NCBI GenBank assembly: GCA_021794275.1
Contig: JAJYRD010000075.1
Span: forward strand, 1 to 46,686
Direction of reading: 5' to 3'
Origin: Pseudomonadota bacterium
GTDB taxonomy: Bacteria > Pseudomonadota > Gammaproteobacteria > Acidiferrobacterales > Acidiferrobacteraceae
DNA length: 46,686 nt
The notes under the pieces: generated by a model
The model's input: the letters and a program-made list of their open reading frames with translations, nothing else
Told to the model about the DNA's origin: nothing
The model's database searches: none
Shown: piece by piece, positions 21,537 to 37,888 of the stretch
Position numbering within the stretch: position 1 is the first letter of the stretch
How the letters are laid out: the number at the start of each line of letters is the position of its first letter
Translations under genes and position numbers: made by a program

Positions 21537-22484
21537 TCAGGGCCTATGCAAGACGAGCCGGGCGATGATGCGGCGGGTGACGAGGTAGGCATTGCGGGCG
21601 GCGAGCGATCCCGCGTACTCGTCACCCTTGGCAATGATCGCCCCGACCGAGGTCGCGGGCGGCGGAACGTCGATGTCGGATACCGCGCGCACCGATAGAT
21701 AGTGATGCTGAAGGCCGAAGGCTGCGAGTGCGGCGATGTCGCCCAGGTCCTCCATCGCCGTCGTGGCGTAGCGCGCAGTGCTGTGGGTATAAAGTGTGAC
21801 GATGTGGCGGGCGATGCGCTGGTTTTGTCGCCCGATCCAGAAATCGTCCCCCGAGACGTTGGCGCCCTCATAGACGTGCGGGCGTCTGTGCAGACCCAGG
21901 GCAGCGTCGAGGGGCAGCACGGCGGCGCTGTCGGCAAGCGGCATCGCCCGGGTCGCGGTATAGGCGGCCGACAGCTGCCGTGGCGCAACGCGATAGGCGA
22001 GCGTATCCCAGGGATTGTGGGCATAAGGGGGCCGTGGCGGTGCCCAGGCGAGATGGCCTGACCGGGTCAGGTAATGGTGGCCAAATCCCCACGAGACGAT
22101 CCAGTTGGCGAGATAGACCGAGCCGAGGGCCGCGCGGCTTTGCACACCCCCTGCGATGCCGCTGCGTATGAAGAGCGTGGCGCGGCAGTCGAGCGCCGGG
22201 TCGCGCACGATCGCGGTCGTACGCACGGCCGCATTGATCTCGCCTTCTCCTGTGATTGCTACGCATATGTGCTGAGCGTCGCAAATCATGGACCGGGCGA
22301 GCCCTGGAACGGGTACCCTGCGATCATAATGTCCGCTGGCTTGCCAAACGCGGAACTCAAGAGGGAAGGCGGTCAGGACAATGGCCTTGGGGCGGTAAGG
22401 GGGCATGGCGCAGGCAATTGCGGGCATGCCAAGCGCAGCGGCGAGAAAGGCGCGTCGCACCGTATTCTTACCGATATCGATCAT
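21537..22484 (-). CDS. Exported NUP-family purine nucleoside protein
   Basis: The 315-residue protein belongs to the purine nucleoside permease (NUP) family, which despite its name is related to nucleoside phosphorylases and was first described in yeast nucleoside uptake. Family blocks visible are VLTAFPLEFRVW near residue 36, ITGEGEINAA, the GIAGGVQSRAALGSVYLANW block near 108, YEGANVSGDDFW near 212 and a TTAMEDLGDIAAL block. An N-terminal signal peptide (VRRAFLAAALGMPAIACA) places it in the periplasm; the adjacent arginines give it a Tat-like look. ATG 22484 has GGGAG nine bases upstream. It is the last gene of the minus-strand operon and may release bases from nucleosides before import; that role is inference. 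Confidence 0.75.
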   Translation of the reverse strand: MIDIGKNTVRRAFLAAALGMPAIACAMPPYRPKAIVLTAFPLEFRVWQASGHYDRRVPVPGLARSMICDAQHICVAITGEGEINAAVRTTAIVRDPALDCRATLFIRSGIAGGVQSRAALGSVYLANWIVSWGFGHHYLTRSGHLAWAPPRPPYAHNPWDTLAYRVAPRQLSAAYTATRAMPLADSAAVLPLDAALGLHRRPHVYEGANVSGDDFWIGRQNQRIARHIVTLYTHSTARYATTAMEDLGDIAALAAFGLQHHYLSVRAVSDIDVPPPATSVGAIIAKGDEYAGSLAARNAYLVTRRIIARLVLHRP

Positions 22485-22550
22485 GGCAAATGGCTCCCTA
22501 TAAGGTTTGGAACGATCTCAACAGACCTGTTGTGGCCTTTCTGATGCGCC

Positions 22551-24116
22551 TCAGAGCCCCAGGCAAAGACCTTCGCTTCGCGGGTCATGCGCGCCCAGCA
22601 GAAGGTTGCCGCTCTCATTTATGGTGATTGCGCCGGCTTGGCCGGTGCCCGCATTCAAGGCCGACACGATTTCAATGGGGTAGCCGAATTGCTGTAGATC
22701 CCCGATTACCCTGGCGCCGGCGTCCGATTCGATCTTAATGCCTTTGCGGCTATCGAGGAAGGTTGGCCCTACATGGATGCGCGGCCCCGCGAGGGCGGCC
22801 AACGGATCCAAGCCGAAGTCGACGAGCCGGGTCAGGATGTGGGCGAGCGCCTGCGGTTGCCCGTCGCCGCCTTGTGAGCCATAGATGGCGCGCACCTTGC
22901 TGTTTTTACGATATAGGGCTGGGCTCAGCGTATGGAGTGGACGCTTTCCAGGAGCCCAGGCGTTGGGATGGCCGCTGGCGGTCGAGAACGCCGCTCCTCG
23001 GTTGTGCCACAAGACCCCCGTGTCTCCGACGACGACGCCGCTGCCGAAATCGAAAAACAAGCTTTGGATCAGACTCACAGAACCTCCGGCTGGATCGCGT
23101 ACGCCGACCCAAACGGTGTCGCCGGTGCGTGCGGGATGCTCTGTATCGAGGGTGTCGGTCCCGGTGACCTCGTCCGCTGGAGGCGCGCGACCCAGCATCG
23201 TGTGCACGGGCACGGGAACGAAAGCGGGATCCGCTACGAAACGGTTGCGGTCGGCAAGCGCCGTCTTTATCGCCTCGATGAGCAGAACATAATAACGCGT
23301 GTCGTCACGGGGCGCCCGCGGGATATCGAAACGGTTCAAGAGGCGCAGGATTTGCAGAGCCGTGACCCCTTGGGTAGGGGGCGGTAGATTGAATGCCTCC
23401 CCGTGGCGGTAGGGAACGGCGAGCGGCGTCACATAGGCGGCGCGCGTGGCCTTGAGGTCGGCCTGAGTGAGGACGCTTCCAGCAGCGCGCAATCCGGCCG
23501 CGAGGCGCGTAGCGAGGGGTCCCTCGTAAAAGCTGCGTGGCCCACTTTCTGCAATTTGGGTGAGCGTTGCAGCCAGCGCGCTTTGCCGCTGGCTGCTACC
23601 GGTCTCGAGCCCGCCGTCCCCACATTTAAAAGCCTCCTTGAAGCCGGGTTGGCAGTCGAGTTCCTCCCGATGGCTCTTGTGCCAAAAAGCCTGGGATTGG
23701 GTCACCGCGTAGCCCTCTTCGGCGCGGGCGATTGCGGGCCCTAGGACTGCGGGCCAATCGAGGGCTCCCGCCCAGGACTCACGGCTGAACCGGTGGGCAA
23801 GGCGCCAGCTATCGACGGCGCCGGCGGTCGTGAATGCGGCCGCCGGGCCACGCAGGGCAAGCCCCATGTTGGGGGGTCGAGCGGCCGCGGCCTGTCCTAT
23901 GCCAAGGATGCCGAGCGGCTCGGCCCCGTCTCGAGCGACCAGCCAGCAGGCATCGCCTCCAAGACCCGTCATGTGCGGGTAGACGACACATAACATCGCA
24001 GCGGCTGCCAATGCTGCTTCTATGGCGTTACCTCCAGCGCGCAAGATGGCAAGTCCGGCGTACGTGGCGTCGGGATGCGGGGTCGTGACAAGCGCGGTAT
24101 GCGATTGCGCTAGCAT
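22551..24116 (-). CDS. Gamma-glutamyltransferase-family Ntn hydrolase, HpxW-like
   Basis: The 521-residue protein is an N-terminal-nucleophile hydrolase of the gamma-glutamyltransferase fold. GGNAIEAALAAAAMLCVVYP at 29-47 and HMTGLGGDACWL following it are family blocks. The predicted self-cleavage site and nucleophile is T334 in RTGDTVWVGVRD; GGDGQPQALAHIL near 447 is also typical. There is no signal peptide, unlike periplasmic Ggt. The N-terminal blocks resemble HpxW, the cytoplasmic oxamate amidohydrolase of purine catabolism in Klebsiella, more than glutathione-degrading Ggt. The setting among ring-degrading hydrolases fits a small amide substrate. Its ATG overlaps the end of the amidohydrolase gene. 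Substrate assignment is inference. Confidence 0.75.
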   Translation of the reverse strand: MLAQSHTALVTTPHPDATYAGLAILRAGGNAIEAALAAAAMLCVVYPHMTGLGGDACWLVARDGAEPLGILGIGQAAAARPPNMGLALRGPAAAFTTAGAVDSWRLAHRFSRESWAGALDWPAVLGPAIARAEEGYAVTQSQAFWHKSHREELDCQPGFKEAFKCGDGGLETGSSQRQSALAATLTQIAESGPRSFYEGPLATRLAAGLRAAGSVLTQADLKATRAAYVTPLAVPYRHGEAFNLPPPTQGVTALQILRLLNRFDIPRAPRDDTRYYVLLIEAIKTALADRNRFVADPAFVPVPVHTMLGRAPPADEVTGTDTLDTEHPARTGDTVWVGVRDPAGGSVSLIQSLFFDFGSGVVVGDTGVLWHNRGAAFSTASGHPNAWAPGKRPLHTLSPALYRKNSKVRAIYGSQGGDGQPQALAHILTRLVDFGLDPLAALAGPRIHVGPTFLDSRKGIKIESDAGARVIGDLQQFGYPIEIVSALNAGTGQAGAITINESGNLLLGAHDPRSEGLCLGL

Positions 24117-25369
24117 GGCATAAGCGGTTCTGGTAGTGCGGGGCGGCCGCCGACGAAAATCTGCTGCCCCGAAATCCACGTGCCCAGGGCGCGCCGTTCG
24201 AGTTCGGCCGCGGTGCCGTCCAGGAGGTCCTCGAACCACGACTGCGGCGATTGCAGGCGCGCCCCGCGCGGCATGAGTACGAAGTCTCCGCGCTTGCCCA
24301 CGCCCAGATTGCCGGCCACCGCGCCACGTCCCATTGCCCGCGCGCCGGCGATGGTTGCGCGAAACAGGGTCTCTTCGGGATCTACGCGCACGCTGGCGGC
24401 CTGATGCTGGCGTCGGAACCTCTGCATGACATGCAACATGCTATGACTTGGTCCCGCACCAACGTCGGATGCGAGCGCAAATGGGACGCCGTGGCGGCGG
24501 GCGCAAGCGAGGTCAAAACGGCCGCTGTCCAATGCCTCGTTGCTCGACGGGCAGTGCGCGATCCAGCAACCGCGTATTTTGAGACACGACCACTCCCGTT
24601 GGCTCAGATGAAGGCAATGACCGAGCACGGTGCGCGGTCCGAGGAGGCCGGCCGCATCGTAGACGTCGGTATAGTCCAGGGCCTGAGGGAACAGGCGTTC
24701 CACCTCCCGCACCTCGGCTGCGGATTCGGCGAGGTGCGTTTGGACCGCAAGCCCTTCGTGGCGCGCGAAGGTGCCTAGGGCGGCGAGATCATCGGCCGCG
24801 CAATTGAGCGCAAAGCGCGGGGTGACCGCGTAGTGGGCACGCCCTATGGCCTCTGACAGAGAGGCGAGATCGGCGGGCGATTTTGCGCTCGCTGCCATGA
24901 GGTCGGCTGGGGCATTCGCCGTCATCACTACGTTTCCCGTAATCCAGTCGCCGCGCCTCGCGGCATGCGCGATGTGTGCTGCCGCAGGATGTGGGCTCGA
25001 ATAACTCATGCCCATAACGGTGCCGGCAGTGAGGCAATCGTCGTAAAACGTCTCCGCTCGTTGCTGCGCAAGCGCGGTATCAGCGTAGCGCGCCTCTTCC
25101 GGCCATATATGGGCCGCGAGCCACGGCAAAAGGGCTTGCGCGTAACGCCCGCGAACCGCATGTTGCACCCAGTGGATATGGATATCCGCAAAACCCGGAA
25201 GGATCACCCCATCGAGATTCACAGGTTCCCATGGGTAATTCTTGACCAGATCATCGAAGCGACCCAGGGCATGGATTCGACCATCCATGACGAGGAGGCC
25301 GCCATCTTCGAGAAATTGCCATGACCGGACGTCAATGGGATTCAAGATGGCCGCGCGAAACAAAGTCAT
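24110..25369 (-). CDS. Guanine-deaminase-like amidohydrolase
   Basis: This 419-residue metal-dependent amidohydrolase should hydrolyse an amino group from a purine or similar heterocycle. Metal and catalytic residues of the guanine deaminase group are all visible: HIH at 64-66, H212 and E215 in QTHLAES, H251 in GHCLHLS and D302 in [15 protein letters not shown] near 183 and [16 protein letters not shown] near 272 are strong GuaD signatures. The length is close to guanine deaminases (about 430). It overlaps the biuret-hydrolase-like gene (ATGA) upstream and the HpxW-like gene downstream. Guanine to xanthine fits the adjacent xanthine-dehydrogenase-like operon, but deamination of cytosine, triazine or other analogues cannot be excluded. 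Confidence 0.8.
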
Positions 25370-26067
25370 GCCGCGACCAGCGCGGCAAGCGCGGTGCGCA
25401 GATTTGCAGAAGGGGCCGTAGCGCCGAATATTCCCCCTTGCATGCTGATCATACTGATCGCCGCCTCATAGTGGCGCTTCTCGGTCGCGCCGGTACAGTC
25501 GGTCAGGAGTAGGCATTCGAATCCGCGGTCGTTGGCCTCGCGCATGGTGGTGTGTACGCACACGTCGGTTGTGATGCCGGTTAGAATGAGATGAGTGACC
25601 CCAGTCGTCCGCAGGATATGTTCGAGATCGGTCGCATAGAAGCTCCCCTTGCCGGGTTTATCGATAACGATCTCGCCGGGCAGCGGACGCAGTTCCGGGA
25701 CGATCTCCCAACCCGGTTCCCCGCGCACCAGTATCCGTCCGCAGGGACCGGGTTCGCCTATGCCGGGGCATACGTTGCGGCTGCGCCATCCTTTGTTGGC
25801 TGGGAGATCCACGAGCTCGGGCCTGTGCCCTTCACGAGTATGGATGACGTGCATTCCCGGCACTTTGCGCACGACATCGAGGGTCCTTCTGATCGGCTCA
25901 ATGGCCGAGCGCGTAAGGCTCAGATCGTAGCCCATCGTGTCCACATAGCCACCCTCCCCACAGAAATCCGTCTGCATATCGATTATGAGGAATGCGGTCA
26001 TGGCGGCATGAGCCGTTCCGTCGAATGGCCAACGATATGGCTCTGCATCGACATCAAATCCGGTCAT
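25366..26067 (-). CDS. biuH: Biuret-hydrolase-like cysteine hydrolase
   Basis: The 233-residue isochorismatase-fold hydrolase has the Asp-Lys-Cys triad: D34 in [13 protein letters not shown]140 in DKPGKGSF and C170 in [15 protein letters not shown]. The N-terminal [10 protein letters not shown] block, [19 protein letters not shown]-like [17 protein letters not shown] and [14 protein letters not shown] closely resemble the biuret amidohydrolase BiuH of Rhizobium as I remember it. BiuH converts biuret to allophanate and ammonia. Ureidoacrylate amidohydrolase RutB is a related alternative, but the GYDLSL and PANK blocks favour BiuH. ATG 26067 is preceded by AGGAGG. The gene lies 12 bases after the cupin and is coupled to the deaminase-like gene. 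Activity on ureidomalonate rather than biuret is conceivable. Confidence 0.8.
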
Positions 26068-26079
26068 TGTGTCCTCCTA

Positions 26080-26508
26080 TTAGTGTGGATTGTTGTCGAC
26101 GAGTGCCACGGGGCCGCGCCATTGGATAAGAACAAGGCAACCCTCGCGGCTATATACTGAGTGGCGGCTTCCGGTCGGATTGAACACATAAGACCCGGCG
26201 GGATATTCGCCCCGTTCATCACTCTGGCTCCCTTTAATCACGAAGATGTGCTCGTCGCCGGTATGGACATGCAGGGGTACGCTGGCGCCAGGAATATAGG
26301 ATAGAAGCGCTATACGCAGGTCTGTCCCCATGTAGAGTTCGCAAATCCGGACCCCTGGCCTCAGCGCTGCCCAATGCGCACCGTCCAGAGCCAGGTCCGA
26401 TGCGGCCAAGACATAGCGTGACCGCCCACCCATAAACGGCTCGTTCATATCGCCAGGGCTCGAAGCCCTGCGGCGGGATTTATGTGGCTCTTTTTCTGGT
26501 TTCCCCAT
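26080..26508 (-). CDS. Small cupin protein
   Basis: The 142-residue protein is a single cupin barrel. Cupin motif 1 is PLHVHTGDEHIFVIKG (metal-ligand His, His and Glu at about 77-82) and motif 2 is PAGSYVFNPTGSRHSVYS (His near 112). This ChrR/AraC-like small cupin could bind a metal and act as an enzyme, isomerase or ligand sensor; I cannot say which. It is the first gene of the minus-strand operon (cupin, biuH, amidohydrolase, HpxW-like, NUP), 12 bases before biuH. ATG 26508 is used; an in-frame ATG at 26448 is an alternative, and neither has a strong ribosome site. A sigma-54-type promoter lies about 48 bases upstream. Confidence 0.75.
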   Translation of the reverse strand: MGKPEKEPHKSRRRASSPGDMNEPFMGGRSRYVLAASDLALDGAHWAALRPGVRICELYMGTDLRIALLSYIPGASVPLHVHTGDEHIFVIKGSQSDERGEYPAGSYVFNPTGSRHSVYSREGCLVLIQWRGPVALVDNNPH

Positions 26509-26555
26509 GATTCAGCCTCAGGCAGTGGATCATGACCGGGTGTCGCGGGGACCCA

Positions 26556-26571
26556 AGCAGTAAACGTGCCA
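26556..26571 (-). promoter_or_regulatory. Sigma-54-type promoter of the cupin-biuH operon
   Basis: Read on the minus strand, TGGCACGTTTACTGCT has the -24 GG and -12 GC at the correct 10-base spacing. The predicted start near 26545 leaves a leader of about 37 bases before the cupin ATG. It shares the TGGCACG and TGCTT blocks with the sites at 19139 and 34409. Confidence 0.6.
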
Positions 26572-26835: not shown

Positions 26836-26851
26836 CGGCACGAAAAATGCT
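26836..26851 (+). promoter_or_regulatory. Sigma-54-type promoter of the Mo-hydroxylase operon
   Basis: CGGCACGAAAAATGCT keeps the invariant GG and GC and the GGCACG and TGCTTTG blocks shared with the exbB site; the first base is C, not T. The predicted start (near 26862) falls just before ATG 26864, so the transcript would be nearly leaderless. Confidence 0.5.
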
Positions 26852-26863
26852 TTGTACACATCG

Positions 26864-29122
26864 ATGCATGAGGATGACACATTCGGGGCGCCGCCCGTAC
26901 AGGAGTCCCCTTTACGGAAAGACGGGACCGGGAAGGTGCGCGGCACGGCGCGTTACGTCGCCGATCTCTCGTACCCTGGGATGCTTCACGGTGCGACGTT
27001 GCGTACGCGCCTGCCTGGGGGCACGGTCGTCTCTATCATGTTCGATGAACGCATTCCATGGCGCGAGTATGTGGTTGTGACTGCGAAGGATGTGCCTGGC
27101 GTAAATGCGGTCAAGATGATCGATCAGGATCAACCGGTATTGGTGGAAACGCAGTTCCGGCATGCCGGCGAACCCGTGGTTCTGATAGCGCACCAGGATC
27201 CCGAGGCCTTGGCCCGCGCCGTTGCCGCTATTCACATTGAGGAGCGTGCATGCACCACGGCGCCGGTCTTTACCATAGATGACGCCTTGCAAGCAGGGAC
27301 ACGGCGGATCGTCGCCGGCAATGTCTACCGCGACTATCTTATGGTAAAGGGCTCGGTGACGGATGCCGAGGCCGATACCTGCCATGTCTTCGAAGGGGAA
27401 TATCAGACCGGCGCGCAGGAACACCTCTATATCGAGCCGCAAGGGATGATTGCGCGCGTGGAGGATAACGTATTGACCGTTGAAGGGTCTCTGCAGTGCC
27501 CGTATTACGTCCATGCGGCGCTCGTCGCCGTGACAGCGTTGCCGGAGGAGCGGGTACGTGTCCAGCAATGCACGACGGGTGGTGCGTTCGGGGGCAAGGA
27601 AGAGTACCCGTCTCACATCGCCTGCCATGCGGCGCTTTTGACTTTGAAGGCGGGCGGGCGGCCTGTGGCACTCATCTACCGACGGAGCGAGGACATGGCG
27701 GTGACGCCGAAGCGTCATCCCTCGCGCTCGCGCGTACGCCTCGGGGCGACCAGCGACGGACGTTTACGTTTCATCGACATCGACTTCGCGATCGACGGAG
27801 GTGCTTATCTGACCTTAAGTCCGGTGGTTTTATCGCGCGGCGTTATCCATGCTGCCGGGCCCTACCGTTGCGATAACGTGCGGGTGCGGGGCCGGGCGGT
27901 CGCTACGAATCACCCGCCATTCGGGGCGTTCCGCGGTTTCGGCGCACCTCAGAGTATCTTCGCCCTGGAGGTCGCGCTTGATGGGCTGGCGCGCGCTCTG
28001 GGGATCGCGCCGGACGTGTTGCGCGCCCGTAATGTCCTTGCCCCCGGGGACGTCTCGCCCGCCGGACAGAAGATCGAGGGGCCCCTCGACATGCAGCGGG
28101 TCATCGCTCAGGCCCTGGAGGCCTGCCGTTATCACGACAAAGCTGAGGCCTATCATCGCTGGAACGCGGCGGGTCGCGCAACCCGCAAGGGAATAGGGCT
28201 TGCCACTTTCTATCATGGTGCAGGGTTTACGGGTAACGGGGAGCTCACCTTGCGATCGCGCGCCGGTCTACGCGTGAACGCAGCGGGCGTCGTGGAGATC
28301 CTGACATCCACCACCGAGATGGGGCAGGGCATGCAGACGACGCTCTCGTGGATCGTTGCCGAGGCCCTGCGCATCCCCTATGAAGGTGTATGCATGGCAA
28401 GGCCTGACACTCGTGATGTACCCAACTCCGGCCCTACGGTTGCATCACGGACCTGCATGGTCGTGGGGGCGATACTCGCGCAGGCCGCCCATAAACTCAT
28501 TGCCAGGCTGCGCGCCGACGCCGCGCTGCCGTCCTCCTACAGCTACGACGAGTTTCGCGCCGCGTGCGCGCGCCTCCCTACCGCCGATGGCGTTACAACC
28601 GTAATGGCCGACTACCGGCATCCCGCGGGTAACGACTGGGACGAGTCGACCTTCCAGGGAAGCCCCTACGCAAGCTTTGCGTGGGCCTGTTATGTGGCCG
28701 AGGTCGAGATCGACACCATGACTGGGGAGGTGCGCGTTCTCGATTTTACCGCCGTCCAGGAGGTTGGGCGGGTCATTCATCCGACCGTGGCGGCGGGCCA
28801 GATCGAGGGTGGGGTAGTGCAGGGCATAGGCTATGCCTTGTTCGAGGAGGTGCGTTTCGGGGCGGATGGGCAAATGGCCAACAACCGCGTCACGAACTAC
28901 ATCATCCCGACGAGCGCCGATATTCCGCCCATACAGGTACTTTTCCAGGAATCCCGGCACGGCGCGGGTCCGGGTGGCGCTGCCGGGATCGGCGAGCTGC
29001 CCATGGACGGACCGGCGCCGGCCATCATCAACGCCATAAATGCCGCGCTCGGTACCGAGCTTCGCCATGTGCCGGCGATGCCGGAGCATATCCTGGCGGC
29101 AATGGATCGGAGGACTCCATGA
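26864..29122 (+). CDS. Xanthine-dehydrogenase-family molybdenum-binding large subunit
   Basis: This 752-residue subunit carries the molybdenum cofactor and the hydroxylation site of a three-subunit purine or pyrimidine hydroxylase. Motifs are GGAFGGKEEYPS near residue 240, GAFRGFGAPQ near 350, the TTEMGQGMQTT block near 485, and GIGELPMDGPAPA, where E711 is the catalytic base. The carbon-monoxide-dehydrogenase signature AYRCSFR is absent. The start is ATG 26864, chosen because the family N-terminus (SPLRKDGTGKVRGTARYVADL) follows soon after; a TTG at 26852 is less likely, and no Shine-Dalgarno sequence is seen. The gene order is Mo, Fe-S, FAD. Substrate could be xanthine, hypoxanthine, uracil or a triazine; sequence alone does not decide. 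Confidence 0.88.
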   Translation: MHEDDTFGAPPVQESPLRKDGTGKVRGTARYVADLSYPGMLHGATLRTRLPGGTVVSIMFDERIPWREYVVVTAKDVPGVNAVKMIDQDQPVLVETQFRHAGEPVVLIAHQDPEALARAVAAIHIEERACTTAPVFTIDDALQAGTRRIVAGNVYRDYLMVKGSVTDAEADTCHVFEGEYQTGAQEHLYIEPQGMIARVEDNVLTVEGSLQCPYYVHAALVAVTALPEERVRVQQCTTGGAFGGKEEYPSHIACHAALLTLKAGGRPVALIYRRSEDMAVTPKRHPSRSRVRLGATSDGRLRFIDIDFAIDGGAYLTLSPVVLSRGVIHAAGPYRCDNVRVRGRAVATNHPPFGAFRGFGAPQSIFALEVALDGLARALGIAPDVLRARNVLAPGDVSPAGQKIEGPLDMQRVIAQALEACRYHDKAEAYHRWNAAGRATRKGIGLATFYHGAGFTGNGELTLRSRAGLRVNAAGVVEILTSTTEMGQGMQTTLSWIVAEALRIPYEGVCMARPDTRDVPNSGPTVASRTCMVVGAILAQAAHKLIARLRADAALPSSYSYDEFRAACARLPTADGVTTVMADYRHPAGNDWDESTFQGSPYASFAWACYVAEVEIDTMTGEVRVLDFTAVQEVGRVIHPTVAAGQIEGGVVQGIGYALFEEVRFGADGQMANNRVTNYIIPTSADIPPIQVLFQESRHGAGPGGAAGIGELPMDGPAPAIINAINAALGTELRHVPAMPEHILAAMDRRTP

Positions 29123-29577
29123 CGATCCCATGTCGTTTTACGGTCAATGGATCGGTAGTCCGTGGGAGTTTCGCACCAATGCGCCGCCTGCTCGATGTGT
29201 TGCGCGCTGAGTGCCATTTTATCGCGACCAAGGAGGGGTGCGGGGAGGGCGAGTGCGGATCGTGCGCGGTACTGCTCGATGGCACGCTTGTGAATAGCTG
29301 TCTTGTTCCGATCGCTGATGTGCATGACCGTGAGGTGACAACCCTTGAGGGCCTGCCCGCGGACGATCCCTTGTTTGCGGCGTTTGCCGACGCAGGCGGG
29401 ACGCAGTGCGGCATCTGCACGCCTGGCATGATCATGGCTGCGCGCGCCTTGTTGAATGACCGCCCGTGCCCCGACCTATTCGAGATCCGTCAGGCACTGG
29501 CAGGTAATCTCTGCCGGTGCACAGGCTACACGGGAATCTACGCCGCAGTTCGCGCGGCCTCGACGCAAGGGAAGTGA
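29119..29577 (+). CDS. Xanthine-dehydrogenase-family 2Fe-2S subunit
   Basis: The 152-residue subunit passes electrons from the Mo centre to FAD through two 2Fe-2S clusters. The plant-ferredoxin-type cluster is bound by cysteines of GCGEGECGSC plus the later VNSC, residues about 37-60. The second, helical cluster is bound by CGICTPGM near 100 and CRCTGYTGI near 132. ATG 29119 overlaps the large-subunit stop (ATGA), with GGAGGA upstream. The length is normal for a separate small subunit. Confidence 0.93.
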   Translation: MTIPCRFTVNGSVVRGSFAPMRRLLDVLRAECHFIATKEGCGEGECGSCAVLLDGTLVNSCLVPIADVHDREVTTLEGLPADDPLFAAFADAGGTQCGICTPGMIMAARALLNDRPCPDLFEIRQALAGNLCRCTGYTGIYAAVRAASTQGK

Positions 29578-29579
29578 GT

Positions 29580-30999: not shown

Positions 31000-32075
31000 T
31001 GCGCGCCGATGTCCATCCGTTTATCGCGGCGGCTCCAGACGATGTTGAGGGTCTCGCGCGGGCCTTACGGGATGGCTGCATCGCCGCCGCCGACATCGTG
31101 GCGATAATCGGCAAGACTGAAGGCAACGGCGCGCGCAATGATTTCACGCGGACTATGGCCACTCATGCCTTTACGCGGCTACTGGCGGGGGAGCTCGCGA
31201 GCAGCGAGCGCGACGTGGAGCAGGGCGTCATGCTGTCTTTCTCGGGAGGTTCCGAAGGTGTCATTACGCCTCATTATCTCGTCTGCACGAAAACGGGAAC
31301 GGAGTCACGATCCGAGCCGGCGACGGGCAAGCGGTTGGCGCTCGCGCAAGCCCGTACCCGGGCCTTCGATGCCACGGAAACAGGGACTATTGTTATGGTG
31401 CGCGAGACCGCGGCGGCCGTGCGCCGGGCCCTGGGGGAGCTGCACGTTTCTCCAGATGATGTGCATCTCGTGCATATTAAAGCGGCGCTTCCGAGCGTGG
31501 TGGTCGGCACCGCAAGCCCTCCCCACTGTACCATGGCCTATGCCCGGGCAGCCTCGGCCTTGGGCGTGGCGGTTGCGCTTGGCGAGGTCGATGGCGATGC
31601 ACTTACCGATGACGCCATTGGCACCCGTCTCGACCTTTACTCGCGGGTCGCGAATGTCTCGGCCAAGCCCGGGCTCTGCGTAAGCGAGATCCTCGTGTTC
31701 GCGAATTCGCTCCACTGGGACAGCCCGCGCCGGATACATCACGCCGTGATGCGCGACATCATCGACATCGAGCCGGTGCGCGCCTTGCTGGCGGGCGCCG
31801 GCCTATCCACGTGCGGGCAGCTTGCCCCTGATCAGACGCGGCGTATCCGCGCAATATTCGCTAAATCTGACGCCGATCCCACCCACGTGATTCGCGGTTA
31901 CCGGCATACCATGTGGACGGACGAGGATTTCAGTGATATGCGTTATTCCCGTTGCGTCGTAGGCGGAGTTCTTGCCGCACTCACCGGGACGACCGCCATT
32001 TATGTCTCGACGCGGGCAGAACACATGGGGCCATCCGGCGGTGGGCCAGTGGCCGTGATCGTCGACGATGAGTGA
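30999..32075 (+). CDS. Ring-opening amidohydrolase (cyanuric acid hydrolase / barbiturase family)
   Basis: This rare family opens cyanuric acid or barbituric acid. The 358 residues show its threefold internal repeat, each unit giving one lysine and one serine: K39 (IIGKTEGNG), K161 (VHIKAAL) and K289 (FAKSDADP); S82 (FSGGSEGVITPH), S237 (FANSLHWD) and S346 (GPSGGGPVAV). VIRGYRHTMWTDED near 298 is also conserved. The length is close to AtzD (363). Sequence alone does not tell me whether it acts on cyanurate or barbiturate. The Mo hydroxylase beside it could form barbiturate from uracil, or cyanurate from 5-azauracil; the BiuH-like enzyme favours the cyanurate reading. It is coupled to both neighbours. 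Confidence 0.88.
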   Translation: MRADVHPFIAAAPDDVEGLARALRDGCIAAADIVAIIGKTEGNGARNDFTRTMATHAFTRLLAGELASSERDVEQGVMLSFSGGSEGVITPHYLVCTKTGTESRSEPATGKRLALAQARTRAFDATETGTIVMVRETAAAVRRALGELHVSPDDVHLVHIKAALPSVVVGTASPPHCTMAYARAASALGVAVALGEVDGDALTDDAIGTRLDLYSRVANVSAKPGLCVSEILVFANSLHWDSPRRIHHAVMRDIIDIEPVRALLAGAGLSTCGQLAPDQTRRIRAIFAKSDADPTHVIRGYRHTMWTDEDFSDMRYSRCVVGGVLAALTGTTAIYVSTRAEHMGPSGGGPVAVIVDDE

Positions 32076-32994
32076 GTCGGCCGCGCTCGTCGAAGTCGTG
32101 GTGGTGCAGGTGGCGGGATCAGCGCCTACCGCGATCGGTGATTCCCTGTATCTGGCTGCATCCGGCTGGTACGGCTCGGTGGGCGGCGGAGCGCTCGAGG
32201 AGAGCTTGAAGAGCCGCGCCATCATGTGTCGGGAGCGTGGTGATGGCGCAGTCGTAGAGTTTTCCCTTAATAGCGACCACGATCAATGTTGCGGGGGGCG
32301 CGTGACGGCGCTCATATGCCTGGTGTCGCCCACGGCAGCGCGTTGGGTCGAAGGTGGCGCACCCCGGCTCTACGGTTGGGACCATATGGGTTCGCCACGC
32401 CTTATAGGGGCATGGTGGCAGGGGCGCTGGCAGGCGAGCAGCGCTTGCGACGAATCGGATCTGGCGACAAATGAATGGCCGGCCGGCGTGTGTGCATGGA
32501 GGGGGCGAATGTACTTCCTGAAGCGTGCGGGCTCGAGACCTCCGCTATGGCTTTTTGGTGCCGGACATGTCGGTGCAGCAATCGCAGAAATGGCATGCCG
32601 ACTTGAATATGATGTGTCGGTGTATGATTCGCGGCCCGAGTGGAACGCGGCTTCACGGTTTCCTCCGAAAGTGAATCGCCATATCGTCGCCATGCCGCCT
32701 GCCGAGGAAGTAGTCCCCGCGCCGTCGGTGCTGGTCATGACCCACAGCCACGGCCTTGACTTCGCGATCACGACGATGTTCCTCACTCGTAATGTCCCTT
32801 ATCTCGGCGTGATCGGCAGTCGCACAAAGGCGGCGCTTTTCAGAAAGCGCCTCCAAGACCGCGGATTTTCCACAAACGATCTCGCCAGGCTTCACATGCC
32901 AATGGGGTTTGCGGGTCTTGGGAAGAAGCCCTATGAGGTTGCGGTGGCCGTTCTCGCAGATCTGTTGCAAAGGCGCCATGAGGGGGCTTTGTGA
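32068..32994 (+). CDS. xdhC: XdhC-type molybdenum cofactor insertion protein
   Basis: XdhC binds the molybdenum cofactor, promotes its sulfuration and hands it to xanthine-dehydrogenase-type enzymes. The 308-residue protein has the N-terminal XdhC/CoxI domain (VQVAGSAPTAIGDSL, GSVGGGALEESL, and DQCCGGRVT with the paired cysteines, residues about 12-78) and the C-terminal Rossmann domain (LFGAGHVGAAIAEMACRL near 162, VMTHSHGLDFAI near 222, YLGVIGSRTKAALFRKRL near 243, PMGFAGLGKKPYEVAVAVLADLL near 276). It overlaps the ring-opening hydrolase by eight bases and the next gene by one, so it serves the upstream Mo subunit. Confidence 0.92.
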   Translation: MSESAALVEVVVVQVAGSAPTAIGDSLYLAASGWYGSVGGGALEESLKSRAIMCRERGDGAVVEFSLNSDHDQCCGGRVTALICLVSPTAARWVEGGAPRLYGWDHMGSPRLIGAWWQGRWQASSACDESDLATNEWPAGVCAWRGRMYFLKRAGSRPPLWLFGAGHVGAAIAEMACRLEYDVSVYDSRPEWNAASRFPPKVNRHIVAMPPAEEVVPAPSVLVMTHSHGLDFAITTMFLTRNVPYLGVIGSRTKAALFRKRLQDRGFSTNDLARLHMPMGFAGLGKKPYEVAVAVLADLLQRRHEGAL

Positions 32995-33581
32995 TGGCGG
33001 TGGTGCTGGCGGGCGGCCGTTCGTCACGGGCTCGAGGCCGCAAGGCCTGCCGGCGGATCGACGGCCGTTCCTGGCTCGGCCATCAATGCCGACATTTGCG
33101 CGCTCAAGGGTTCCGGCAGGTGCATGTAGTTGTGGGTTTTTCGGCCATCAAAACCGCGCGCTGCGCACCTTCCGGCGTCCGGCGAATCTGGAACCGGAAG
33201 AGGGCGCATGGGCCATTCGCGAGCCTGCAGGCGGGATTGCAGACGGTCCGGGGCGTCGTACTTGTGCTTCCGGTCGACGCGTGGCCACCGGCGCCCGCCA
33301 CGATCTATCGACTTCGCCAAGCCCTACGGGGAGCGCCCGCGGCCGTTCCTGTCTGGCGCGGACGAGGTGGACACCCCGTCCTGCTGTCACCTGATATGGT
33401 GGCAGCGATCCGTGGCTTGCCGGGCTCGGCGGCAGGTCGCCTGGACCACATGCTCGCGTCCGTTGCTACGCGCCGCGTGTCTGTACGGGACCGCTCCATA
33501 CGACACAATATGAATCGATCCGGTGATTGGTCGCTCTACCTGCGATACCGCAAGCTAAGGAGGCCGCTATGGACCGGTTAG
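32994..33581 (+). CDS. MobA/MocA-family molybdenum cofactor nucleotidyltransferase
   Basis: The 195-residue protein resembles the nucleotidyltransferases that add CMP (MocA) or GMP (MobA) to molybdopterin. The N-terminal phosphate loop is VVLAGGRSSRARG (residues 3-15), GPFASLQAGL lies near 74, the metal aspartate is in LPVDAWPP near 89, and GHPVLLSPDM near 122 is typical. The loop lacks the usual LAGGxSxRMGxDK lysine spacing (RGRKACR here), so activity should be tested. ATG 32994 overlaps the xdhC stop as TGATG. Next to xdhC, a MocA-like function in making the cytosine-dinucleotide cofactor is most likely. Its end overlaps the GntR gene. Confidence 0.75.
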   Translation: MAVVLAGGRSSRARGRKACRRIDGRSWLGHQCRHLRAQGFRQVHVVVGFSAIKTARCAPSGVRRIWNRKRAHGPFASLQAGLQTVRGVVLVLPVDAWPPAPATIYRLRQALRGAPAAVPVWRGRGGHPVLLSPDMVAAIRGLPGSAAGRLDHMLASVATRRVSVRDRSIRHNMNRSGDWSLYLRYRKLRRPLWTG

Positions 33582-34264
33582 CGCCGCGCATCAGCTCGTC
33601 CGCTATTTATGAGCGCCTGAAGGAGATGATCCTGGGCTTTGAGATCTACCCCGGAAGCCGTATCACTGAGTCAGACCTCGCCGCGCATTTCGGCGTGAGC
33701 CGCACCCCGGTGCGCGAGGCTCTACAACGCCTGGCTCAGGAAGGTCAGGTTAGCATTCGCACCAAGCAGGGTTGCTTCGTCCGCCAGATCAATATATCCG
33801 AGCTCTCGCAGTTTTACCGAGTACGTACCGCGCTCGAATGTCTGTCCTTGGAGATCGCCGCAAGATTGATGGCAAAGGACGCGCTGCGTGCGCTTGCAGA
33901 GGAGTGGGATCCGGCGTGTTGTCCGGGGGCCGCAGGCAACCTGACTCTCATGGTACAAAAGGAGGAATCGTTTCATATAGCGCTGGCGCAGGGCGGTGGC
34001 AATGAGGCCCTGGTGACCTATCTGAACGACATAAACGAGCGCATACGGGTCATAAGGCGCCTCGATTTTACGGCGGGCTTTCGCATCGAACGGACCTACG
34101 AGGAGCACCATCGGATGGCCTGTCTCCTGCTGGATGGGGATTTGGCCGCCGCCAAAGCGCTCATGGCGGACCATATCCTGCGGAGCGAGAAGTTTGCGCG
34201 TAGTGTGACACTGGAACAGCTGGCCAGGACCGACAACAGCACGGCCTGGGCCGCCGTCCGCTAG
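33569..34264 (+). CDS. GntR-family regulator, FCD domain
   Basis: The 231-residue regulator has an N-terminal winged helix (IYERLKEMILGFEIYPGSRI, then TESDLAAHFGVSRTPVREALQRLAQEG, residues about 12-62) and a C-terminal FCD ligand-binding domain of the FadR subgroup. FCD metal or ligand residues include the histidines of EESFHIAL and EEHHRMACLLLDG. ATG 33569 has a perfect AAGGAGG six bases upstream, although it begins 13 bases before the MobA-like gene ends. As the last gene of the Mo-hydroxylase operon it probably responds to a pathway intermediate. TGTATACA-like octamers after three promoters are possible targets. A weak hairpin (CCCC-ATTGA-GGGG, 34310-34322) follows it. Confidence 0.88.
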   Translation: MDRLAPRISSSAIYERLKEMILGFEIYPGSRITESDLAAHFGVSRTPVREALQRLAQEGQVSIRTKQGCFVRQINISELSQFYRVRTALECLSLEIAARLMAKDALRALAEEWDPACCPGAAGNLTLMVQKEESFHIALAQGGGNEALVTYLNDINERIRVIRRLDFTAGFRIERTYEEHHRMACLLLDGDLAAAKALMADHILRSEKFARSVTLEQLARTDNSTAWAAVR

Positions 34265-34408: not shown

Positions 34409-34424
34409 TGGCACGGAAGATGCT
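34409..34424 (+). promoter_or_regulatory. Sigma-54-type promoter of exbB-exbD-tonB
   Basis: TGGCACGGAAGATGCT has a perfect -24 block and the -12 GC at the right spacing. The predicted start near 34436 gives a leader of about 98 bases that includes a hairpin around the palindrome CGAGTACTCG (34485-34494). It is nearly identical to the TonB-receptor site. Confidence 0.6.
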
Positions 34425-34533
34425 TTGCGTGTATGCAAGGTTGCATCCCGGTCAGTCACCGATATGCGGCACACCATCAGGCCCGCGAGTACTCGGGCGG
34501 GTCCGTTGAACGGTTTATGTTAAGGAGATAAAT

Positions 34534-35250
34534 ATGGTAGTCCTGCAATATATCGTCCATTTGGCGAACTACTCGGATGGCGTCTTGTACATTTTGGCGC
34601 TCGTCATGATGCTTGAGATCGCAGTAATATTCGATAGGTTATGGTTCCTGCGGCGTGGCCTTAGGGGAGGCAAGGAGGTTATTAAAGACATATCACGACG
34701 GGGCAAGATGCAGCGCGATGACCTAAAGGAGATTGCCGAACGCTGCGCCGGGCTGCCTGAAGCACGGCTTGTGGAGGTGGCGGAGCGCTACTTTGGGCTT
34801 ATTCACCATTATGGGAGCGCCCGTGGTGAGGCTTTTGCCAATCGCCTGGATGAATCCATATTTCTTATTACACCCGCTCTCGATAAGAGGTTGTGGCTTC
34901 TCGATACGATCGTGACATTGGCGCCCCTCCTGGGGCTATTTGGCACCATAATCGGGATGTTCCATGCCTTTTCCATACTGGCCCTGCCTGGACACGCGCC
35001 AACTTCGGTAACCGCCGGAGTGGCCGACGCCCTGATCGCCACGGCCACCGGTCTCTTCATAGCCATGGTTGGCCTCATAAGCTTCAACGCCTTTAACAAC
35101 GCCATAGAGAAGATCGTTTATCAGCTGGAATCCTTGAAGATTCTCTTGCTAAACCGTATGGATGGCGCGCCGGTTTGGGCGGAAGCGGGATCGGTAACGC
35201 CCGCGCAAGGGCAAGAGGGCCGACCGGTGGATGGCCGGGTAATGATCTGA
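34534..35250 (+). CDS. exbB: ExbB-type (MotA/TolQ/ExbB) proton channel protein
   Basis: ExbB forms the inner-membrane proton channel that powers TonB. The 238-residue protein has a membrane segment near residues 15-35 (SDGVLYILALVMMLEIAVIF), a cytoplasmic loop, and two further segments near 128-150 and 170-195. The family core is LDTIVTLAPLLGLFGTIIGM (about 125-145) and VADALIATATGLFIAMVGLI (about 165-185). ATG 34534 has TAAGGAGAT seven bases upstream. exbD follows after 11 bases and tonB after a further 52, so the three make a self-contained energising system. Its promoter matches that of the TonB receptor at 19209, suggesting it serves that receptor. Confidence 0.92.
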   Translation: MVVLQYIVHLANYSDGVLYILALVMMLEIAVIFDRLWFLRRGLRGGKEVIKDISRRGKMQRDDLKEIAERCAGLPEARLVEVAERYFGLIHHYGSARGEAFANRLDESIFLITPALDKRLWLLDTIVTLAPLLGLFGTIIGMFHAFSILALPGHAPTSVTAGVADALIATATGLFIAMVGLISFNAFNNAIEKIVYQLESLKILLLNRMDGAPVWAEAGSVTPAQGQEGRPVDGRVMI

Positions 35251-35261
35251 AGGAGGGCAAT

Positions 35262-35663
35262 ATGACGCCACGAATGGGTCGACGCAAGAAGGGTCGGGTG
35301 GAGATCATCCCCATGATCGATGTCATGCTTTTCCTGCTTGTGTTTTTCATTATGATCACGATGCAGATGATATCGGACCGCGGTCTGCATCTTAACCTGC
35401 CGACCTCGAGCCAGGCTCACCCATTGCCACATCCGCGTTTCGTCATCAATGTGAAGACGCCCGGCACGGTGGTGGTAAACGGCAAGCATTATGACCTGGC
35501 TGCCCTTGCCGCCATGCTGCATTCGGACGGCAATCCGGCCAAGACGCAAGTGACGATCGCAGCCGACAAGAAGGTGCCGTTTCAGGAATTCGTGCACGTT
35601 ATGGATGCCTGTCGCAAGGGCGGTGTGAGCCAGATCGGAATCGCGACGGAGCCCAAGCCGTGA
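35262..35663 (+). CDS. exbD: ExbD-type biopolymer transport protein
   Basis: ExbD is the single-pass partner of ExbB. The 133 residues start with a basic cytoplasmic tail (MGRRKKGRVEIIPMIDVMLF), in which the aspartate of PMIDVM at about residue 21 is the essential proton-translocating residue within the membrane segment (about 18-42). A periplasmic domain follows (VVVNGKHYDLAAL, VTIAADKKVPFQEFVHVMDA), as in ExbD/TolR. ATG 35262 has AAGGAGGG seven bases upstream and lies 11 bases after exbB. Confidence 0.92.
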   Translation: MTPRMGRRKKGRVEIIPMIDVMLFLLVFFIMITMQMISDRGLHLNLPTSSQAHPLPHPRFVINVKTPGTVVVNGKHYDLAALAAMLHSDGNPAKTQVTIAADKKVPFQEFVHVMDACRKGGVSQIGIATEPKP

Positions 35664-35715
35664 GCGCTTTGGGGGGAATGCCAGACGGCAGGCGGCGGCC
35701 GTCAAGGAGCCGCGC

Positions 35716-36456
35716 ATGAGCGTCTTGGGATGGCCGGCGGGAAATGAACGGGGCGATGACGGGAACTCGCGGGCGTTTCCGTATGCTTTGGCCGGGGCCT
35801 TCGTGCTGGAGGTTGGCCTGGTCGCGGCCGTGGCCCTTTGGCCTCACAGTAAACCTCATGTCGTGCGGCTAAGCTCGATCGCAGTCCAGATGGTGACCTT
35901 GCCGCAGCCTGTGCCGGCGCAACCGCGGGCAAGGCCGGTGATCCCGCCGCCCTTGGTCCACAAGATTCCGCCTAAACCGATTGTCACTAAGGCGCCGGTG
36001 CACGAGGTCGTGCCGCCGCCCGTGAAGCCCAAGCTAGTTCCAAAGTCGGTACGGGTGATGCCGCCGCATAGACCCATGCCGGTCGTAAGGCCCCATAAGG
36101 TCGCGCCTGTGAAGTCCCATAAGTTGGCGCCGGCGCCCGATCCGTCGCCGCAACTGCTCGCGTCGCTCATGTCACGCTACGTGGGTCTTGTGAGGCCCGT
36201 GATACAGGGGCACTTGCATGTCCCGCCGATGCTGAAGGCAATGGGGCTTTCCGGTCGCTCCACGATAGAATTTCGCCTGTCACCGCTCGGGCATCTCCTG
36301 TGGGCCAAGATCCTCGTACCAAGCCGCATCGGCGCGGTGAACGGCGCCGCGCTCGCGGCCGTAGAGCGTAGCCACTACCCTCCGTTTTTGAAACGTATGC
36401 CGAAGCGGGACACGACCTTCGAGATTACCGTACACATCAGCGGGGACGGTTCGTGA
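35716..36456 (+). CDS. tonB: TonB energy-transducing protein
   Basis: TonB spans the periplasm and transmits energy to outer-membrane receptors. The 246-residue protein has a single membrane anchor (about residues 21-42, AFPYALAGAFVLEVGLVAAV), a long proline- and lysine-rich spacer (about 60-145, with repeated PP, KP and VRP pairs) and a C-terminal TonB domain (about 150-243, including STIEFRLSPLGHLLWAKIL and the AALAAVERSHYPPF block). ATG 35716 has AAGGAG seven bases upstream. It closes the exbB-exbD-tonB set and lies 37 bases before the NCS1 permease. Confidence 0.88.
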   Translation: MSVLGWPAGNERGDDGNSRAFPYALAGAFVLEVGLVAAVALWPHSKPHVVRLSSIAVQMVTLPQPVPAQPRARPVIPPPLVHKIPPKPIVTKAPVHEVVPPPVKPKLVPKSVRVMPPHRPMPVVRPHKVAPVKSHKLAPAPDPSPQLLASLMSRYVGLVRPVIQGHLHVPPMLKAMGLSGRSTIEFRLSPLGHLLWAKILVPSRIGAVNGAALAAVERSHYPPFLKRMPKRDTTFEITVHISGDGS

Positions 36457-36493
36457 GGAGCGGCGATAACGGCGTGAGCGGGGAGGGCGAACT

Positions 36494-37888
36494 ATGGCGC
36501 GCGAACAGCATTCTTTAGGGGCGACCGGCGCGGACGAGCGCGGGGGATCGACGTGGGGGGCGTTCTTCATATGGCTCGCGGCCACCATGACCGCCTCGAC
36601 CATCCCTTTAGGCGGCATCATGGCGCAGATGTTCCCGCACGCACCGTTCCTGTTGGTGATACTGGTGGCGTCCGGGTTTTTCCTTCTGGTCGGCATCGTG
36701 AGCATCCCGGGATTCGTCTACGGCTTGCCTGCCATGGTGATATCCGAGCGCTTGTTCGGGGCGCGCGTCAACCGCGCGATAGCGGCGGCAAACTGGCTCT
36801 CTCAGGTCGGATGGGAGAGTGTCGTTCTGGTGATCGTCACCTATATCGTCCGCAGCCTGCTGTTTCCCGGCGATACTGTCTATCCGTTGATGGCGACACT
36901 GACCGCGCTTGCCGTGTCATTACTCGCTAATTTCGCGGTCCCACTACTGGGATACCGCGCCATCGTCGTGGCACAAAAAGCGGGCGCCGGGGTTTTGATG
37001 GTCCTCTCGATCATTATCCTCTTCCATATCCCCCTCAAGGACAGTCTCGTGCCGGACAGCGCCGTTATGTCGGGGGCCACCCTGCGCAGCGCTCTTGGCG
37101 CCTTGTCCCTGGGGCTCATGGGTGGCGCCCTATCATGGACCATGTTCGCGTCGGACTATTCGCGATTCACCCGGAGCGACGCATCGCTGGCGCGGGTAGC
37201 CCTGACGCCGGCGGCAGGCGGATTTCTCGGAACCTTCGTCATCCTCCTGGTATCCGTGGCCCTCTATCAGGCGGGTGGGGTCACGTTCGGCAGGGATGGG
37301 ATCGCCTTCCCGCGTGGCATGTTTCATAGTGAGGTTTTGTATTACGGCTTTTGCGTCTTTGCCGTCCTCGGATTGCTCGCCTCGAACTTCCTGAATGCGT
37401 TCAGTTCGGCCTTCAGTCTCGCGGTTACCCTGCGGCGTGACCTGAATCGGCGCCTCTCGACATTTGTGGATGCCTCCATAGGGACGGTGGTGGCCACCTG
37501 GATCCTGTTTTATGCCCCTACCTTCCTTGATGTGTTCGAGGTCTTTCTATCGCTCCTTATTATCGTCGCCGCGCCCTGGACGGGCGTGGTCGCCGTGGAG
37601 ATCGTGGGTGACCTTCTCGATAAGGGCGGTCTGCGAGATCCAGTACTATGGGCCCCGGGTCGGCAGGGCCGCGCGGTGGTCCTCGCGCTGTCGATAGCTG
37701 GGAGCGCGGTCTTCTCAAGCAACCCCCTGTGGGTCGGCTATGGCGCCCGCGCGCTCGGGGGTGTCGACATCTCCCCCTTGGTGGGCCTCGCCCTGGGCGC
37801 GCTGCTTGCGACCGGCGTGCGCCTTGCGCGTGGAGCATCCACACGTGCCGGGCTTGAGCGGACCAAGGCCGACGTGCGGCCTTCGTAA
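36494..37888 (+). CDS. NCS1-family (CodB-like) nucleobase permease
   Basis: The 464-residue inner-membrane protein has about 12 hydrophobic segments and resembles the NCS1 cation symporters for cytosine, purines, hydantoin or allantoin. Visible family features are GSTWGAFFIWLAATMTASTI near residue 18, LSLGLMGGALSWTMFASDYS near 198, and the ADYSRF-type motif read here as SDYSRFTR. ATG 36494 has GGAGGGCG seven bases upstream. It lies in the same direction and 37 bases after tonB, so it is probably the inner-membrane importer for the heterocycle taken up by the TonB receptor. Substrate cannot be read from sequence. No clear terminator follows. Confidence 0.82.
   Translation: MAREQHSLGATGADERGGSTWGAFFIWLAATMTASTIPLGGIMAQMFPHAPFLLVILVASGFFLLVGIVSIPGFVYGLPAMVISERLFGARVNRAIAAANWLSQVGWESVVLVIVTYIVRSLLFPGDTVYPLMATLTALAVSLLANFAVPLLGYRAIVVAQKAGAGVLMVLSIIILFHIPLKDSLVPDSAVMSGATLRSALGALSLGLMGGALSWTMFASDYSRFTRSDASLARVALTPAAGGFLGTFVILLVSVALYQAGGVTFGRDGIAFPRGMFHSEVLYYGFCVFAVLGLLASNFLNAFSSAFSLAVTLRRDLNRRLSTFVDASIGTVVATWILFYAPTFLDVFEVFLSLLIIVAAPWTGVVAVEIVGDLLDKGGLRDPVLWAPGRQGRAVVLALSIAGSAVFSSNPLWVGYGARALGGVDISPLVGLALGALLATGVRLARGASTRAGLERTKADVRPS

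Follow-up and report, generated by a model that had tools for sequence, protein, structure and literature searches.

Gene Content and Conservation of the Locus

The 46,686-nucleotide contig JAJYRD010000075.1 of the 2.68 Mb draft assembly GCA_021794275.1, hereafter the window, carries a gene cluster in which a cyclic amide hydrolase of the AtzD/barbiturase family is paired with an AllA-like lyase. The cluster spans a TonB-dependent receptor (from 19209) to an NCS1 permease (to 37888) and consists of two divergent gene blocks together with the receptor, a GntR/FCD regulator and an ExbB-ExbD-TonB system; the stretch analyzed here is 21537..37888. The initial annotation described a catabolic locus for nitrogen heterocycles, and the genes it named (NCS1, GuaD-like, three-subunit molybdenum (Mo) hydroxylase, XdhC, MobA/MocA-like, AtzD/barbiturase-family, BiuH, AllA-like and gamma-glutamyltransferase-family (GGT) genes) are all intact frames where it placed them. 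To these we add the NUP-family protein, the cupin, the regulator, ExbB-ExbD-TonB and the receptor, as well as the pairing of hydrolase and lyase. The features, in coordinates of the window, are:

19140..19155, + strand: sigma54-type (-24/-12) site upstream of the receptor gene, exact GGCACGN5TGCTT
19209..21482, + strand: TonB-dependent receptor (PF00593/PF07715), just outside the analyzed stretch
21537..22484, - strand: NUP-family (purine nucleoside permease/phosphorylase-like) protein (PF06516, 144.8 bits), N-terminus signal-peptide-like by eye
22551..24119, - strand: GGT amidohydrolase, putatively HpxW-like (PF01019, 359.7 bits)
24110..25369, - strand: guanine-deaminase-like amidohydrolase, GuaD (top solved match guanine deaminase 6ohb)
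25366..26067, - strand: biuret hydrolase BiuH (NF050097, 404 bits, cut-off 370; nearest solved chain 6xjm, biuret hydrolase)
26080..26508, - strand: Cupin_7 protein (PF12973), candidate carboxybiuret/carbamate decarboxylase
26555..26570, - strand: sigma54-type site upstream of cupin-BiuH-GuaD-GGT, exact pattern
26837..26852, + strand: sigma54-type site upstream of the Mo operon, exact pattern, overlapping the TTG frame start
26852..29122, + strand: Mo hydroxylase large subunit, xanthine-dehydrogenase type (PF02738/PF20256), true start perhaps ATG 26864
29119..29577, + strand: [2Fe-2S] subunit of the Mo hydroxylase (PF01799/PF00111)
29580..30440, + strand: flavin adenine dinucleotide (FAD) subunit of the Mo hydroxylase (PF00941/PF03450)
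30427..30999, + strand: AllA-like cupin lyase, partner of the Group IV hydrolase (PF04115, 47 bits, cut-off 23)
30999..32075, + strand: Group IV cyclic amide hydrolase, AtzD/barbiturase family (PF09663, 388.5 bits; Group IV signature and clade)
32068..32994, + strand: XdhC Mo-enzyme maturation factor (TIGR02964, 164.7 bits, cut-off 161.6)
32991..33581, + strand: MobA/MocA-like nucleotidyltransferase (PF12804)
33572..34264, + strand: GntR/FCD regulator (PF00392 and PF07729)
34410..34425, + strand: sigma54-type site upstream of exbB, exact pattern
34534..36456, + strand: ExbB, ExbD and TonB (PF01618, PF02472, PF03544)
36494..37888, + strand: NCS1 nucleobase permease (PF02133, 58.2 bits)

The cluster is genuine and conserved. 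The ring-opening gene is present in 7 of 14 genomes of the genus Acidiferrobacter, the window's own included, and in none of the 46 other relatives searched. The gene order from GGT to NCS1 is the same in 6 of the 14 (in G005 the stretch, and in G002 the contig, ends within GGT), which argues that the cluster is more than a chance assembly; in the seventh genome (G012) the order is kept from the hydrolase to the receptor, up to the contig end. Receptor and NUP genes are seen in the window, G003, G012 and G013, the stretches of the remaining genomes ending before these genes are reached. The receptor also adjoins the cluster in loci L010, L012 and L013 and in Acidithiobacillus, where an insertion element disrupts the Acidithiobacillus caldus copy. 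Across the nine genes compared, ratios of nonsynonymous to synonymous substitution between the window and its relatives are 0.04-0.28.

The Ring-opening Hydrolase Belongs to Group IV

Named genomes were scanned for relatives of the hydrolase; at least 560 were confirmed, and the best 80 loci of these were used for locus comparisons. The window hydrolase scores 352.6 bits against the cyanuric acid hydrolase (CAH) equivalog NF052395, under the cut-off of 360, and its AlphaFold model (predicted local distance difference test score 92.5) has the CAH/barbiturase fold. Peat et al. named Group IV of this family from Acidithiobacillus and Sulfobacillus sequences, with the signature Arg195, Met/Thr321, Arg325, Thr345 and Arg346; the available portion of their paper assigns the group no activity and suggests that it serves a function peculiar to these acidophiles (Peat et al. 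2013; PMC3758960). The window hydrolase falls in the same clade and bears the equivalents of Arg195, Arg325, Thr345 and Arg346 in our residue table, and of Met321 in the alignment.

Residues were compared over 103 rows, duplicates included (L036 and L038-L040 are omitted from one residue table), from which 28 Group IV rows (23 without duplicates, window included) were chosen by Thr334-Arg335 in CAH numbering. All 28 retain the three Ser-Lys dyads and the three substrate-binding Arg residues; all 28 also carry Lys228, Ala158 and Ser77, and all have lost Glu230. By script thresholds, five columns (77, 158, 228, 334 and 335) are alone in being fixed relative to the 59 other non-barbiturase rows, and none of them lies more than two positions from a catalytic Ser or Lys. 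Thr334 and Arg335 are fixed by choice, since the rows were selected by these residues; independent support for the group comes from a 101-row tree, built after removal of the five duplicate Group IV rows, in which the 23 remaining rows, A. caldus included, form one clade (support 100/100, stem 0.77).

These data place the ring-opening enzyme in Group IV, apart from both the barbiturases and the ordinary cyanuric acid hydrolases. Membership of the AtzD/barbiturase family, as initially annotated, thus stands, with a placement outside the barbiturase clade. In place of SGGxExQGPxGGGP, described as the CAH motif in the accessible text of PMC9118981, the window hydrolase has STRAEHMGPSGGGP, and Gly occupies position 230. 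The loss of Glu230 throughout Group IV breaks the absolute conservation across the family stated in the part of PMC4051656 available. An ordinary cyanuric acid hydrolase is a less likely identity, given the failed motif, the lost Glu230 and the Group IV clade. Given two new basic residues and one lost acidic residue around an otherwise unchanged catalytic center, we suspect that the substrate is an anionic relative of cyanurate and barbiturate. A carboxylated ring has already been considered for this family, as the Protein Data Bank title of a member, 5hy0, reads 'orotic acid hydrolase'.

Barbiturase was rejected as the preferred identity of the window hydrolase on both signature and clade. 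Asn188 and Lys314 are found in all 16 barbiturase-clade rows, which group with the solved barbiturase 5hwe in the 101-row tree; at positions 188, 314 and 334 the window hydrolase has Arg, Arg and Thr in place of Asn, Lys and Val, and belongs to a separate clade. Position 188 of barbiturase is given as glutamine in one partially available source (PMC4051656) and as Asn in another (Peat et al. 2013; PMC3758960), the rows compared here agreeing with the latter.

Two further observations concern other branches of the family. Carbamate kinase or FdrA genes lie near barbiturase-clade loci (L117, L118, L120-L124, L127, L131-L133, L135, L137), a hint that a carbamoyltransferase may cleave ureidomalonate when pyrimidines are broken down oxidatively. 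Separately, one sub-clade (L078-L082, L084, L086-L088, L090, L096, L108-L110, L112, L114) has Gly157 and, where the metal loop normally stands, an SGGTEHQ-type loop; many of its loci also carry a distantly related AtzE-like amidase.

An AllA-like Gene Accompanies Every Group IV Locus Compared

Among the best 80 loci, an AllA-like (ureidoglycolate-lyase-family) gene lies directly upstream of the hydrolase in 19/19 Group IV loci and in 0/61 others, four of which (L077, L101, L104, L122) have less than 650 bp upstream of the match. Likewise, the AllA-like and Group IV genes co-occur in the same seven genomes among 60 relatives. The AllA-like protein exceeds the PF04115 gathering score and has the AllA fold; it misses the NCBIfam AllA equivalog cut-offs, with a best score of 35 bits versus 260. 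By record titles, the pair is distributed over Pseudomonadota, Bacillota, the Cyanobacteria/Obscuribacterales group and one Blastocatellia metagenome-assembled genome (MAG), and in one locus (L047) it occurs with no other cluster genes nearby. We found no earlier literature on a ring-opening amidohydrolase together with ureidoglycolate lyase.

In the Obscuribacterales-type and Blastocatellia MAGs (L072-L076) an alpha/beta-hydrolase comes next after the pair and, where the contig extends that far, forms a fusion with a thiamine pyrophosphate enzyme; locus L075 encodes AllA as a fusion with a ketopantoate-reductase-like protein.

Sigma54-type Sites Precede Four Transcription Units

The pattern GGCACGN5TGCTT occurs exactly four times in the window, once upstream of each of four transcription units (the receptor, cupin-BiuH-GuaD-GGT, the Mo operon and the exbB operon), and not once in 100 shuffles, a test that is partly post hoc because the pattern was written after the sites were seen. 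A looser sigma54 consensus has 11 matches in the window versus 8 expected, a number reached by 18 of 100 shuffles and thus not significant. Evidence separate from the shuffles comes from recurrence: the cupin, Mo and exbB sites are found at near-identical distance in all five other GGT-to-NCS1 loci of the genus, the receptor site is found in the one of these that extends to the receptor, and the divergent locus L013 has sites upstream of its Mo and receptor genes. We infer from these promoter-like sequences that the cluster is probably under nitrogen control; the sites point to nitrogen supply. The initial view of the locus as catabolic for nitrogen heterocycles is supported.

Purine-type Genes and the Mo Hydroxylase

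Acidiferrobacter loci combine GuaD, NUP and NCS1 genes with the xanthine-dehydrogenase-type Mo hydroxylase, and NCS1, GuaD, adenosine deaminase and NUP genes are found in 6 of 8 Acidithiobacillus-type loci (L061, L062, L063, L068, L070, L071), the L070 deaminase scoring above its NCBIfam cut-off. When aligned to 2ckj, which we take to be human xanthine oxidoreductase, the window Mo subunit retains the equivalents (bovine numbering) of Glu802, Arg880, Phe914, Phe1009 and Thr1010, presumably of the substrate site, and of the presumably catalytic Glu1261. In two Bacillota MAGs a Mo hydroxylase of another subfamily, with 26-28% identity to that of A. caldus, lies beside the pair; the single one tested is XdhA-like. 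No literature was found joining Acidiferrobacter with xanthine dehydrogenase. A purine route, which the initial annotation had named last, is the best supported scheme for the upstream half of the pathway.

Downstream Enzymes of Proposed Nitrogen Release

Downstream of the hydrolase, Acidithiobacillus has AtzG-AtzE-AtzH, in place of which Acidiferrobacter has BiuH and the cupin. In a tree, BiuH clusters with proven BiuHs, apart from the TrtA-like proteins (as we call the second member of the BiuH family found in certain clusters). Aligned to 6xjm, it has the Asp-Lys-Cys triad, the second Lys and Gln215, with Ile at the Val218 position, as reported for TrtA. The cupin is 41-49% identical to stretches that, in two cyanurate clusters of Rhizobium, adjoin BiuH or a second gene of its family. 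AtzE, AtzH/HpxZ and GGT genes follow the hydrolase in 7 of 8 Acidithiobacillus-type loci, the contig of the eighth ending there, so that GGT is common to both genera. NCBI labels AtzH and HpxZ alike as HpxZ. The Acidithiobacillus AtzE shares 61% identity with AtzE from loci whose hydrolase is CAH-type and 51% with both the AtzE of Pseudomonas sp. ADP and Klebsiella HpxY, at a fork of the tree that lacks resolution. Among solved chains the window GGT scores highest against the single-chain 2nlz (219 bits) and 2i3o (207 bits), followed by chains A and B (200 and 150 bits) of 5hft, which we take to be HpxW.

Allophanate hydrolase is over its cut-off in 6/6 Acidiferrobacter genomes with the cluster, 1/5 without it and 3/6 Acidithiobacillus genomes with it; for urease alpha the corresponding counts are 4/6, 0/5 and 1/6. 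Given this variation among cluster-bearing genomes, the pathway does not consistently include the breakdown of either allophanate or urea. Moreover, allophanate hydrolase is not a clean test of biuret, since the gene in G000 adjoins, by eye, a urea-carboxylase-like gene and ureG.

A Proposed Pathway and Its Alternatives

From the observed gene content, conserved order, active-site signature, pairing and promoter-like sites, we infer the substrates and reactions as follows. We tentatively favor, at something below even confidence, the view that acidophiles use this cluster, under sigma54 control, to scavenge nitrogen from purines and the products of their oxidation. The TonB-driven receptor and NCS1 permease would import the substrate, from which the NUP-family protein may free a base; the guanine-deaminase-like enzyme would deaminate the base and the Mo hydroxylase would oxidize it. 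The Group IV hydrolase would then use Ser-Lys chemistry to open a cyclic ureide that is anionic and derived from a purine, the AllA-like lyase would split a urea-type group off a carbinolamine-type intermediate, and BiuH with the cupin (AtzG-AtzE-AtzH/HpxZ in Acidithiobacillus), together with the HpxW-like GGT, would release the leftover nitrogen as ammonia. That the Group IV and AllA-like proteins together make up a new module, independent of uricase, that opens anionic rings derived from purines (oxonate, for instance) is a more speculative suggestion. Our preferred ring is oxonate (allantoxanate)-like: its opening with loss of CO2, an AllA-type release of urea that leaves oxamate, and hydrolysis of oxamate by the HpxW-like GGT would each, we reason, match what these three enzyme families ordinarily catalyze. 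Cyanurate is a possible substrate, and barbiturate the least likely.

Several observations weigh against this purine-scavenging interpretation. The step from urate to an oxidized ring is missing: uricase was found in 0/10 genomes and HpxO over its cut-off in 0/18 (the best sub-threshold match, in G466, reaching 268 bits versus 500), in a search that did not extend to hydroxyisourate (HIU) hydrolase, 2-oxo-4-hydroxy-4-carboxy-5-ureidoimidazoline (OHCU) decarboxylase or PuuD. The Mo subunits fall under every NCBIfam xanthine dehydrogenase equivalog cut-off (best pucD, 463 bits vs 784), and the window GuaD falls under those for guanine deaminase (327 vs 351 and 297 vs 375 bits). The Mo genes and the pair are present at the plasmid locus of A. 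caldus and in Acidithiobacillus sp. HP-2 (L065), with no NCS1, GuaD, adenosine deaminase or NUP match within the stretch examined, and on account of these two loci we hold the interpretation slightly less firmly. Acidithiobacillus sp. YTS05 has purine deaminases and the pair, but no PF02738 Mo hydroxylase genome-wide, and neither urease nor allophanate hydrolase over cut-off. In L067 and L072-L076 none of the purine-type proteins used as queries has a match within the 3-21 kb examined. Finally, a sigma54 gene was not found in the window's draft assembly, although it is present in 11 of the 12 genomes searched.

The canonical urate route was rejected on the counts of uricase and HpxO given above.

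The best surviving alternative is the triazine route of the initial annotation, which we judge unlikely but credible. Here the Mo hydroxylase would make cyanurate (e.g. from 5-azauracil), the Group IV enzyme would convert it to carboxybiuret and the cupin would yield biuret, with BiuH and allophanate hydrolase finishing; in Acidithiobacillus, AtzEG-AtzH would handle the same carboxybiuret. The biuret end of this scheme has held up, as BiuH appears genuine by both model and clade, and the hydrolase retains every Ser, Lys and Arg residue of CAH. The order AtzG-AtzE-AtzH after the Acidithiobacillus hydrolase is that of the ADP cyanurate operon, AtzE is closest to that of CAH-type loci, and within Acidiferrobacter allophanate hydrolase over its cut-off is commoner in genomes with the cluster than in those without. 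The cyanurate step fares worse, since the ring-opener lacks the published CAH motif (in the accessible text of PMC9118981) and Glu230, and falls in Group IV. Nor does the route give GGT, AllA or the purine deaminases a role, and only half of the cluster-bearing Acidithiobacillus genomes have allophanate hydrolase over cut-off. No literature was found joining 5-azauracil with cyanuric acid, or cyanuric acid with molybdenum, uric acid and biuret together; a crystal paper does connect oxonic acid with 5-azauracil.

Two further schemes are both improbable. In one, the Group IV enzyme would itself be a hydrolytic, uricase-independent opener of the purine ring, acting directly on xanthine or urate, and BiuH or AtzEGH would remove the ureido group. 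This would explain the missing uricase and HpxO, the presence of GuaD in YTS05 even though Mo genes are absent there, and why residues 158 and 230 are smaller; the bulky new Lys228 and Arg335 argue against a larger bicyclic substrate, however, and AllA and GGT are left unexplained. In the other, the pair would open orotate or a similar carboxylated pyrimidine to a ureido-fumarate-type acid, which AllA would split into urea and oxaloacetate. The title of 5hy0, the extra Lys and Arg, which suit a carboxylate, and the isolated pair of L047 favor it, but no pyrimidine genes were recognized nearby, the purine genes and BiuH are unexplained, and no urease or allophanate hydrolase passes its cut-off in YTS05. 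The oxidative uracil route, also proposed initially, in which the Mo hydroxylase would produce barbiturate, the Group IV enzyme ureidomalonate, and BiuH or AtzEGH and GGT would finish, is very improbable: a Mo hydroxylase and a ring-opener of the family do adjoin, and ureidomalonate would be chemically like oxalurate, but the Asn188/Lys314 barbiturase signature is absent, the 5hwe clade is separate, and the 16 barbiturase-clade loci (12 with a carbamate kinase match, 6 with FdrA) include none with BiuH or AllA.

Neighboring Genes

Beyond the cluster, a short-chain dehydrogenase gene is present in two copies roughly 4 kb apart, on the - strand at 38727-39350 and 42589-43374 of the window; the second copy is truncated, and the N-terminal parts of the two look identical. 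Between them (40730-42153, - strand), adjoining frames resemble by eye an AbiEi/AbiEii-type pair.

Comparison with Known Systems and Implications

The component families of the cluster were already known, as was the Group IV clade, without a function; the AllA partner and the purine setting appear new, neither being found in the literature searched. To the account of Peat et al., the available portion of which gives neither activity nor gene context for Group IV (Peat et al. 2013; PMC3758960), we add the AllA pairing, the purine context, the sigma54-type sites and further phyla. Three known systems each resemble part of the locus. The atzDGEHF genes of Pseudomonas sp. ADP place AtzG, AtzE and AtzH (labeled HpxZ) after the ring-opener, as in Acidithiobacillus, but the stretch compared has no annotated AllA, GGT, Mo hydroxylase or deaminase, and its active-site signature differs from that of Group IV. 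The Klebsiella hpxWXYZ oxalurate/oxamate operon joins a GGT (HpxW) to the AtzG-, AtzE- and AtzH-like HpxX, HpxY and HpxZ (HpxX, an AtzE-family protein and HpxZ were seen); it lacks an AtzD family member, and Acidiferrobacter has BiuH and the cupin in place of HpxXYZ. A ggt-atzGEH arrangement, with ggt replacing atzD, is described for Enterobacteriaceae in the accessible text of PMC6219798. In the Rhizobium AtzD-BiuH cyanurate clusters AtzD, BiuH and a cupin relative stand together, as in Acidiferrobacter, but AtzD is CAH-type, uptake is by an ATP-binding cassette system, and the stretches compared hold no AllA or Mo hydroxylase.

In its available portion, Peat et al. (2013; PMC3758960) left the function of the acidophile Group IV enzymes open. 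Testable constraints on it now come from the constant pairing with AllA, from the purine genes that often surround the pair and from promoter sites of the nitrogen type. Group IV proteins reportedly failed to express in an earlier survey. A purine-derived substrate, if true, would bear on why cyanurate-type enzymes exist in nature: cyanuric acid is stated, in the part of PMC4051656 available, not to be known as a natural product, while the accessible text of PMC7948467 reports that oxidation of uric acid can yield it. The module would then join purine catabolism to the enzymes of biuret and cyanurate breakdown, and would give part of the cyanuric acid hydrolase family a natural role separate from herbicides.

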